41,441 nucleotides of DNA, from the NCBI GenBank assembly GCA_031291595.1, contig JARLIU010000268.1, positions 1 to 41,441 on the forward strand, read 5' to 3'. The DNA comes from Ancalomicrobiaceae bacterium (GTDB lineage Bacteria > Pseudomonadota > Alphaproteobacteria > Rhizobiales > Ancalomicrobiaceae). The notes beneath the pieces were generated by a model. The model was not told where the DNA came from. It did not search any database and saw only the letters and a list, made by a program, of their open reading frames with translations. A program made the translations under genes and the position numbers. This document shows, piece by piece, positions 21,343 to 23,096 of this stretch (position 1 is its first letter; each line of letters begins with the position of its first letter).

Positions 21343-22026
21343 TCAGACCAGCGTCAGCGGCAAGCGCCCGCCACCGTTCAATTCGACCCGCAAGGCATCG
21401 AACGTCGCCACCGAAGGATGGCGGTCGGTCGGTCGGTGCGGACTGCACGCCGTGATGATCACGACCGAGGCGCCGGCTGCCTCGGCGGCTTCGACGCCGG
21501 CGGGAGCGTCTTCGAAGACGAGACAGTCGGCTGCAGCGACGCCGAGCCGTGCGGCGGCGAGCAGATAGCAGTCGGGCGCCGGCTTGCCGTTGGCAACGTC
21601 CTCGCCGGCGACAAGCATCGGCGGCACAGGCAGTCCGGCGGCCGCGATCCGCCGCAAGGCGAGCGCACGCGGGGCCGAGGTCACCACCGCCCATCGATCG
21701 GCCGGCAGTGACGCGAGCAGCGCCGCGGCGCCCGGAATTGCATCGATCCCGTCGACCAGGTCGATCTCGGCCCGAGTGATCAACTCCGCTTCCGCCAGCG
21801 GATCGACGCCCGGCAGGCCGAGGCGCGCGATCGTATCGAAGGCCCTGACGCCATGGATGGTCGGCAGAAATGCTGCAACATCGAGCCCGTGTCGCACCGC
21901 CCAGTCGGTCCAGATGCGCTCGGCCACGGCAATCGACGTCAGGATCGTGCCGTCCATGTCGAAGAGAAAGGCCGCGAACTCTCTGCCAATGTGAATACCC
22001 TTCTCCCGCAATGGATTAACGATCAT
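21343..22026 (-). CDS. HAD-superfamily phosphatase (subfamily IA, sugar-phosphatase-like)
   Basis: 227 residues. Motif I is LFDMDGTI (nucleophile Asp23, acid/base Asp25), motif II the Thr/Ser in VVTSAPR, motif III Lys in NGKPAPDCY and motif IV FEDAPAGVEAA. The alpha-helical cap between motifs I and II is C1 type, as in small sugar-phosphate or glycerol-phosphate phosphatases. It would hydrolyse a small phosphate monoester in the cytosol; the substrate cannot be told. The ATG lies 7 bases after GGAGGG and overlaps by one base (TGATG) the stop of a short upstream open frame. Same strand as coxC but 226 bp away and probably separate. Confidence 0.88.
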   Translation of the reverse strand: MIVNPLREKGIHIGREFAAFLFDMDGTILTSIAVAERIWTDWAVRHGLDVAAFLPTIHGVRAFDTIARLGLPGVDPLAEAELITRAEIDLVDGIDAIPGAAALLASLPADRWAVVTSAPRALALRRIAAAGLPVPPMLVAGEDVANGKPAPDCYLLAAARLGVAAADCLVFEDAPAGVEAAEAAGASVVIITACSPHRPTDRHPSVATFDALRVELNGGGRLPLTLV

Positions 22027-22268
22027 CAATTGTCCCTCCAACCCCGGCGGCGCGCCCGACCGGTTCGCGCTTCAACGCGGCCCAGCCGCCGCGACAGCTT
22101 ACCCGACGCGCCGGCCGATGCCAGAAATTCCGACAGCGTCCGGTGGAAATCGGCGACATGAGCTGCCGCGCCCACGGTCTTTGCCGCGCATCGATGGAGC
22201 GAGCGGAGGCCGCTCCGACGAACGACGACGCCCGCGGCGAAGCGGCTGGCGAGCCCGGCGAATGCGCT
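22026..22268 (-). pseudogene. Possible 3' remnant of an unknown gene, cut by the palindromic element
   Basis: On the minus strand a frame is open from the CTAG edge of the palindromic element (about 22268) to a TGA at 22026-22028 that overlaps the HAD gene's ATG. It could encode about 80 residues including HVADFHRTLSEFLASAG and GKLSRRLGRVEARTG. There is no good start codon apart from an internal GTG near 22170. The stop-start overlap with the next gene is what a true upstream operon partner would leave. GC at third positions is only moderately high and no family was recognised, so it may be chance. Confidence 0.25.
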
Positions 22269-22435
22269 CTAGTGGAGCGAATTTGACATTTGAGTCCCAC
22301 TCGCGGCTTGCATAGTCTCAAATGTCGAATTCAAAGCCCCACTGGATTCAGTGAATTGCCAGTGGTCCTGAAATTCCGACATTTGCGTATGAGCGCGCGG
22401 CAAGTGGGATGCAAATGTCGGAATCGGACCGCTAG
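22269..22435. repeat. 167-bp nested palindromic element with CTAG ends (MITE-like)
   Basis: The element is nearly symmetric about base 22352. Four copies of GACATTTG alternate in orientation: 22285-22292 (+), 22319-22326 (-), 22378-22385 (+), 22413-22420 (-). Left half: arms 22279-22294 and 22317-22332 match at 15 of 16 bases. Right half: 22373-22386 and 22411-22424 match perfectly. The centre holds CCACTGG (22339-22345) / CCAGTGG (22359-22365). Both halves also share CCCACT and both ends are CTAG (22269-22272, 22432-22435). It is clearly more AT-rich than its surroundings. A non-autonomous TA-target (IS630/Tc1-type) miniature element or a REP-like repeat are the main readings; no transposase is present. 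Confidence 0.65.
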
Positions 22436-22553
22436 GCTGGACATCCGAAGGCGCCCGCCGGTTCGGTCCCGTCAGCCAGGCGCTCGCAGCGGGGCGGCGG
22501 CAACGCCAGCGGTGCCGTATCGGACGGCCGGCGAGTGCCGGATGGAGGCAGGG

Positions 22554-23096
22554 ATGGAAAGTCTGCCGATCGGCAAAGCCTTCACATTGATCGAGCCTGG
22601 GCCAGTGGTGCTGGTAACGACGCATGCCGGCGGCAAGGACAACGTGATGACGATCAGTTGGACCATGGTGCTGGATTTCTCCGCATCGTTCGCCATCACG
22701 ACCGGTCCCTGGAACTTTTCGTATCGGGCGCTGCAGGAAACCAAGGAGTGCGTGATTGCGATCCCGACGGTGGACCTGGTCGACACGGTCGTCGGAGTGG
22801 GAACCTGCTCGGGCAAAGACACGGACAAGTTCGAAAGGTTCGGCCTGACCCGGGAGAAGGCGAGACATGTTCGGGCGCCGCTCATCCGGGAATGTCTGGC
22901 AAATATCGAATGCCGGGTCGTCGACATCATCGATCGACACAGCATCGTCGTTCTTCAGGGCGTTGCCGCCTATTTCGACAGTTCCCGTAAGGAAAGACGG
23001 ATGATCCATGCCGTGGGTGACGGCACGTTTGTCGTAGATGGGCGCAGGATCGACCGCAAAACAATGATGCAGTCCAAGCTGCCGAGCGGACTATAG
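22554..23096 (+). CDS. Flavin reductase-like domain protein (FMN-binding split barrel)
   Basis: 180 residues. The pattern PGPVVLVTTHAGGKDNVMTISWTMVLDFSASFAITTG is the N-terminal signature of the flavin_reduct family (COG1853), and the middle ECVIAIPTVDLVDTVVGVGTCSGKDTDKF continues it. Members bind FMN and either reduce free flavin for a partner monooxygenase or act as small oxidoreductases. The ATG at 22554 is 5 bases after GGAGG; an ATG at 22542 overlaps that site. It stands alone on the plus strand between the palindromic element and the converging ROK gene, so no partner can be inferred. Confidence 0.85.
   Translation: MESLPIGKAFTLIEPGPVVLVTTHAGGKDNVMTISWTMVLDFSASFAITTGPWNFSYRALQETKECVIAIPTVDLVDTVVGVGTCSGKDTDKFERFGLTREKARHVRAPLIRECLANIECRVVDIIDRHSIVVLQGVAAYFDSSRKERRMIHAVGDGTFVVDGRRIDRKTMMQSKLPSGL

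Follow-up and report, generated by a model that had tools for sequence, protein, structure and literature searches.

A CTAG-bounded double-hairpin repeat of alphaproteobacteria with the features of an IS630-type MITE

Among the described systems nearest to the repeat reported here are the IS630-family MITEs Correia/NEMIS of Neisseria and Nezha of cyanobacteria. RIME1 of rhizobia, about 106 to 112 bp long and with two large palindromes, may also be compared, and a search of the open-licence literature together with one look-up returned no paper or record of it. REPINs/BIMEs and the GTAG/CGTC-tagged REPs are portrayed, in PMC3733652 and PMC3116915, as hairpins that often stand in inverted pairs, bear a tetranucleotide tag and occur in many copies, and the CGTC-tagged REPs are placed mostly in alphaproteobacteria, seemingly without a dedicated transposase (PMC3733652). 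In Brucella, IS711 duplicates TA at YTAR sites and has been linked to the Bru-RS repeats, of which Bru-RS1 and Bru-RS2 are described as IS711 insertion hot spots (PMC2266754 and PMC3163539).

The repeat found in Ancalomicrobiaceae bacterium shares something with each of these systems. Like the IS630-family MITEs, it is short and geneless, has terminal inverted repeats and a TA-containing target, and possesses ends that are common to IS630 genes; unlike them, it is built of two halves, in each of which an end pairs with a bulged inverted copy of itself to form a hairpin, and it has an inner CTAG, a linker of near-fixed length, and arms that vary between lineages. The inverted pairing of hairpins, the tetranucleotide tag and the high copy number are REP-like, but the tag here is CTAG, pairs with itself at the foot of the stem and is present on both sides of each hairpin, and the element measures 167 bp compared with units of 20-40 bp in REPs. 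It is also, like Bru-RS (Bru-RS1 is 103 bp), a palindromic intergenic repeat of the same bacterial class, a likeness drawn from description. The open-licence literature that we searched yielded no published description of the element.

The window, by which we mean the whole 41,441-nucleotide stretch of DNA that was analyzed, carries the element at 22269-22435, a span of 167 bp including the terminal CTAG tetranucleotides at 22269-22272 and 22432-22435; no strand is assigned to the element or to these ends, which were placed by aligning 30 copies found in this genome and which we read as the target tetranucleotide with a presumed duplication of TA. Hairpin A (22269-22345, plus strand) consists of an outer arm at 22269-22292, a loop at 22293-22318 and an inner arm at 22319-22345 that has a bulge and ends in the inner corner CTGG, a variant of CTAG. 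A 13-nt linker, ATTCAGTGAATTG (22346-22358, plus strand), lies between the inner corners and is followed by hairpin B (22359-22435, plus strand), in which an inner arm at 22359-22385 with a bulge and the inner corner CCAG is followed by a loop at 22386-22411 and an outer arm at 22412-22435. The element lies in the 500 bp separating two divergent genes identified by Pfam: on the left a HAD-family hydrolase gene (21343-22041, minus strand; PF00702, E 5.1e-20) and on the right a flavin reductase-like gene (22542-23096, plus strand; PF01613, E 4.6e-26), both outside the element.

The original prediction for this locus, a 167-bp nested palindrome with CTAG at both ends, was borne out in most of its particulars. 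Four cores do alternate in orientation, with GACATTTG at 22285 and 22378 and its complement CAAATGTC at 22319 and 22412, and these sites account for four of the five occurrences of the octamer GACATTTG on both strands of the 41-kb window. Each half is palindromic, as had been proposed, since inverted-repeat arms pair at 94% in the left half (22279-22294 with 22317-22332) and at 100% in the right (22373-22386 with 22411-22424). The two halves are indeed inverted versions of each other about position 22352, but they are inexact copies, and their outer 24-mers agree at 18 of 24 positions. The element is also more AT-rich than its surroundings, having a GC fraction of 0.51 compared with 0.67 and 0.63 in the 500 bp on either side. 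Folding of 22240-22465 gave a z-score of -6.2, with none of 200 shuffled sequences equally stable, and a search of 22100-22600 against Rfam returned no match up to E 1.

Copies are abundant in the same genome. BLAST, for which 40 of the 95 candidates were scored, returned at least 125 pieces that match the element, and the arm pattern, allowing up to three mismatches, matched 58 times on the forward and 72 times on the reverse strand while the reversed pattern matched on neither. In the alignment of 30 of these copies with 25-base flanks, agreement ends at CTAG on both sides wherever the contig does not break off inside a copy, and the flanks are unrelated to each other. The repeat was found in five of 41 genomes (its own and 40 relatives): besides its own, the congener G002, with at least 33 pieces, of which at least 20 are near-full copies (20 of its 63 candidates were scored), G001 with one match, G013 with three, and G016 with two short matches. 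The joined 64+64-base flanks of the window's locus had no match in G001 or G002. The MITE reading thus agrees with what its copies reveal, as the element is multicopy, short and without a transposase gene, and has sharp borders and unrelated flanks in its own and related genomes. The opposite expectation, a single-copy sequence or one with no relative in any genome, does not describe an element with dozens of copies elsewhere, and the proposal of an operator array dedicated to the flavin-reductase or HAD gene fails because the same sequence recurs at dozens of sites whose flanks are unrelated.

Several contigs of this genome begin in a copy, so the repeat evidently fragments assemblies; C65, C112, C165, C197, C227, C238, C259, and C260 all start in a copy or within about 25 bases of one. 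Two copies on contigs C129 and C305 (L016 and L023) have nearly identical flanks, either because the region is duplicated or because the assembly contains strain variants.

The repeat is widespread among alphaproteobacteria. An exact arm pattern, CTAGTGGANTGAATTTGACATTTG, chosen so as not to match the subtype of the window's copy, was present in 112 stretches of the genome contigs database, from Rhizobium, Agrobacterium, Allorhizobium, Jiella, Martelella, Aurantimonas, Mesorhizobium, Phyllobacterium, Brucella, Ochrobactrum, Chelatococcus, Nitrobacter, Asticcacaulis, and others, genera that we take by name to be alphaproteobacteria. The exceptions are one unclassified bacterium and five loci labelled Marinicella sp. 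W31, a name absent from the taxonomy dump. Exact outer arms number from 1 to 45 per genome in fifteen of these. A covariance model of the element matched at least 15 of 240 alphaproteobacterial genomes, its own included, a lower bound given the strict filters and the 11 candidates scored per genome, and revealed subfamilies with the same plan and arms of GAAGTTCG or GAAATTCG. Among viral sequences, one viral contig matched the arm pattern, and phage records gave no match to one whole element used as the query.

Some of these copies stand in settings of their own. In Martelella mediterranea (L116, near 1575), the left CTAG seems to provide the stop codon of a gene resembling purH; through its CTAG the element can furnish a TAG stop codon. 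Two inverted copies surround about 1.5 kb at L142 (574-2402), an arrangement like a compound transposon. One copy in Martelella (G045, G046, G047) is adjoined by a different repeat of about 100 bp (query 1431-1532) with dozens of matches, and in two organisms (L102 and L114) a sequence starting AGCGCCGTGCGT directly follows a truncated element at the break point.

The build of the element is best seen in an alignment of 49 copies, comprising 48 representatives less than 87% alike and the window's copy, with L062 left out. Two separate hairpins pair in 95.7% of cells, and sliding the partners by 1-3 columns lowers the pairing to 26-45%. Both sides changed in 24 of 50 pairs, compared with 12.4 in shuffles, none of 500 of which reached as high a count. 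Each half pairs with itself in 95-96% of cells, whereas outer arm pairs with outer arm in 85.3%. Pairing and covariation together therefore indicate that each half is kept complementary to itself, and more so than to the other half.

This plan is kept while the arm sequence differs between lineages. Outer arms are continuous and inner arms carry 3-5 extra bases as a bulge; a loop of about 26 bases, reduced to a few bases in one lineage, separates the outer end from its inverted copy. The CTAG feet pair together (alignment columns 1-4 with 82-85 and 102-105 with 179-182). Inner corners read CTAG in 292 of 376 cases, as called by a parser that favours CTAG, and are joined by a linker some 13 bases long, such as AATCATAAAGTTG and AATCAATGAATTG, which has the same place and a similar length in the parsed copies, among them a list of 45 diverged copies, several of which were parsed wrongly or not at all. 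The short-loop lineage (G112; L314 and L341-L350) follows the same plan in 118-121 bp, with loops of a few bases, and in its size and two palindromes this form is similar to RIME1 as described.

Mispairs of G-T and A-C are about equally frequent in 188 copies (60 and 46 over 374 arms), though not in the 49 aligned copies (54 and 30), so that the excess weakens in the larger set; on balance this argues against selection acting on an RNA from one strand. The loops were also compared with each other in the 45 of 49 representatives that could be parsed: loop A and loop B of the same copy had a complementarity of 6.93 compared with 5.97 for permuted pairs, a value reached in 0 of 2000 permutations, but with relatedness left in, the own pair beat the mean of the others in only 28 of 45 and loop A against itself scored 6.33. 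A column-wise test of loop-loop complementarity was not convincing.

Variant forms were encountered alongside the complete ones. Single or hybrid hairpins occur at L097, L102, L150, L166, L180, and L251 and among the plasmid matches H39-H45, and may perhaps be deletion products of the double element. In seven plasmid records from Agrobacterium vitis/Allorhizobium the B half alone matches. L316 (1551-1645) consists of one long hairpin, 95 bp in length, which is bounded by CTAG and has GACATATGG arms, and L315 (1501-1618) has a similar double-hairpin plan with different arms and inner corners that are not clear CTAG.

The outer tetranucleotide is CTAG at 324 of 376 ends, a proportion biased upward by the many copies collected with a pattern requiring CTAG at one end; these 188 copies were kept from 210 candidates by mismatch and length. 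The bases beyond the tetranucleotide display no strong preference across the 210 candidates, about 20 of which are poor matches. Adjoining elements share one terminal CTAG at L185 and L146 (two subfamilies) and at L025/L030 in the window's genome. A second family with the same plan and the unrelated arms CTAGTGCACCGACTCATTC... and CTAGTGCAG...ACACAAACACTTG is present in this genome at L030 (156-323) and near 1663 of L025, where it abuts the terminal CTAG of a first-family copy (contigs C165 and C29).

Empty sites were sought with the joined flanks of 27 loci (8 + 16 + 3), and eight alignments at five of these loci have four bases at each junction, CTAG or near it; the other 22 gave no usable empty site. 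The 8 loci in eight genomes yielded empty sites for three copies of Agrobacterium vitis; in every case one strain carries the copy and two others lack it. The 16 loci, 13 from the window's genome and 3 from Jiella, gave one usable empty site, in G002, and one of the three G013 loci gave another, in G004. The junctions read CTAG (L194), CTAG (L202), CCAG (L201), CAAG (L193), CGAG (L300), CCAC (L192), TCAG (L282), and TAGG (L200, with CTAG one base over), so that an exact in-register CTAG is seen in only two of the eight, both at one locus, and the L201 and L282 alignments have small indels further out. Five of six G002 matches, L212, and three of four G004/G010 alignments were unusable as empty sites, and three Jiella flava matches lie outside the count. 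Four-base empty junctions imply that insertion added, besides the element, a second copy of the tetranucleotide or of the TA within it, and the single CTAG-like tetranucleotide at empty sites sustains the earlier suggestion that the CTAG ends arose by insertion at a TA target. Because duplication of TA and of CTAG at a CTAG site yields identical sequence, that TA rather than the whole CTAG is duplicated is our inference.

All three copies in G013 depart from this pattern, with CCAG-like outer corners on the left and CTGG-like corners on the right (CCAG/CCGG, CCAG/CTGG, and GCAG/CTGG). The corners of a copy thus repeat in inverted rather than direct orientation, an outcome that duplication of TA or of CTAG does not predict.

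A candidate for the mover emerged from a sister subfamily, that with GAAGTTCG arms, whose outer end CTAGTGTCCCGAATCCGAAGTTCG (L305, G179) is identical at 24 of 24 positions to the 3' terminus of a gene in Roseomonas mucosa whose annotation is IS630 family transposase. In a search of plasmids with L305, the first 24 bases were the sole match (E 0.04, a weak value by itself); it carries weight because it opens with CTAG precisely where the gene has its stop codon. The encoded protein scores 276.6 bits against NF033545 IS630 (cut-off 100) and matches DDE_3 at 1.7e-21. Matches were found in 748 plasmid records, from which ten loci of related IS630 elements were examined. Seven of them show CTAG with a similar end on both sides, two on one side, and one (L358, 93% identical to the Roseomonas locus) on neither; the ends of these loci agree with that of L305 at 16 to 21 of 24 positions.

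For the window's own family, the resemblance is at 17-19 of 24 positions. Contig C183 of G002, a member of the same genus, stops inside an IS630-like gene of which the last 81 codons are present; the product is 54% identical to the Roseomonas protein (P0001) over 72 aa, and the stop codon lies within CTAG. The fragment falls below the Pfam cut-off (24 vs 28.6 bits), and of the three matches in the Pfam search of G002 for IS630, it is the one later found to have the right kind of end. Of the 24 positions of this end, CTAGTGGATCGACTCCAACGCTTG, 19 are the same in the B end of L037, 18 in that of L005, and 17 in that of the window's copy. Beyond the first seven bases the agreement with L037 is 12 of 17, a value reached by 11 of 1739 CTAG-anchored 24-mers of the collected sequences, after simple word filters had taken out the obvious ends of this family. 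Another IS630 in G002 (L077) has CTAG at both ends and other arms.

In sum, IS630 ends match (sister subfamily) or resemble (this family) those of the element, but Pfam detected no DDE_3 (IS630) gene in the window's genome, a draft of 319 contigs that is 95.65% complete. A full-length IS630 with a GACATTTG end was not found in the sequences searched. Longer elements with the same ends were limited to pairs of neighbouring copies and the IS630 at L077, and no pair of element ends at IS distance was seen among the matches listed for 15 genomes, read by eye.

We conclude that the element is very probably a non-autonomous MITE of the IS630 (IS630-Tc1-mariner) kind, with an IS630 transposase as the likely mover into CTAG. 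The assignment to insertion by an IS630/Tc1-type element, as originally predicted, is supported, and IS630 transposase as the mover of this element, and movement by it, are what the shared ends suggest at the level of sequence. An IS630-family transposase made elsewhere would recognise both outer ends, each about 24 bases long, and insert the element at CTAG sites, such that each copy reads C-TA-element-TA-G. Each end is followed by a loop and by an inverted copy of itself with a bulge of 3-5 bases, making each half a hairpin, and the pairing within each half is upheld by compensatory changes, presumably through selection or through template-switch correction of palindromes.

Different movers or functions would need to account for the same observations. 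Were the element REPIN/BIME-like or derived from IS200/IS605, its two tetranucleotide-footed hairpins would be moved as single-stranded DNA by a Y1 (RAYT-type) transposase, with the inner CTAG as a guide for the target. The covarying stems of the two-hairpin build, the conservation of the inner corners, which almost equals that of the outer ones, and the complementary fashion in which the G013 corners are altered all fit such a scheme, although the target-guide idea draws on only three G013 copies, with one of four G004/G010 alignments usable. However, Y1_Tnp (PF01797) was found in none of 15 element-bearing genomes tested, nor in the window's genome, a further difference from REPs; in a second set of 15 genomes Y1 occurred only in G002 and G013, was IS200-like, and had no GACATTTG-type arm in the surrounding sequence that was examined. 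IS630 genes with ends of the required type do exist, and the unpaired GTAG/CGTC tag at one end of a REPIN hairpin is not seen here, where the CTAG feet pair together. A RAYT/IS200 mover was rejected, as Y1 genes are absent or without element arms nearby in the genomes searched, and we regard the scheme as highly improbable. A regulatory array of four operator sites, or a structured RNA of the neighbouring genes, could explain the placement of palindromic sites within 500 bp between two divergent genes and the strong fold, and seems scarcely credible given the same element at dozens of places with unrelated flanks, the lack of an Rfam match, the about equal G-T and A-C mispairs (60 vs 46), which give no clear sign of RNA selection, and the empty sites in sister strains for other copies. 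The element is likewise no single-copy operator in its own genome.

A further alternative concerns the build only and is compatible with a MITE. The hairpins may be functionless and kept palindromic by template switching (quasi-palindrome correction), the bulges and linker being left over from a master copy. The compensatory changes, which show no clear excess of G-T across the 188 copies, speak for such a process, as do single and hybrid hairpins that resemble deletion products, but the place of the bulge, the inner CTAG and the linker are kept while the arms differ between lineages, and the short-loop form of G112 has the same plan. We consider this explanation a serious one that falls somewhat short of being probable.

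What is new about this MITE is its plan of two bulged hairpins, each an end with its inverted copy, whose form is kept while the arms change; the conserved inner corners, the bulges of the inner arms and the linker exceed the needs of a plain MITE. DDE transposons are not known to require such hairpins. It is conceivable, though in our judgment rather unlikely, that the fold itself is read by the transposition machinery or by the host, and that the double hairpins constitute a class of IS630-dependent elements across alphaproteobacteria. If this were true, arm sequence would be free and structure conserved in CTAG-footed IS630-dependent elements, and the bulged inner copies of the ends could serve as decoys or regulators that confine cutting to the outer ends. 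The result ties a widespread alphaproteobacterial repeat to IS630 transposases and provides a case in which the ends of a MITE are maintained as two independent hairpins.
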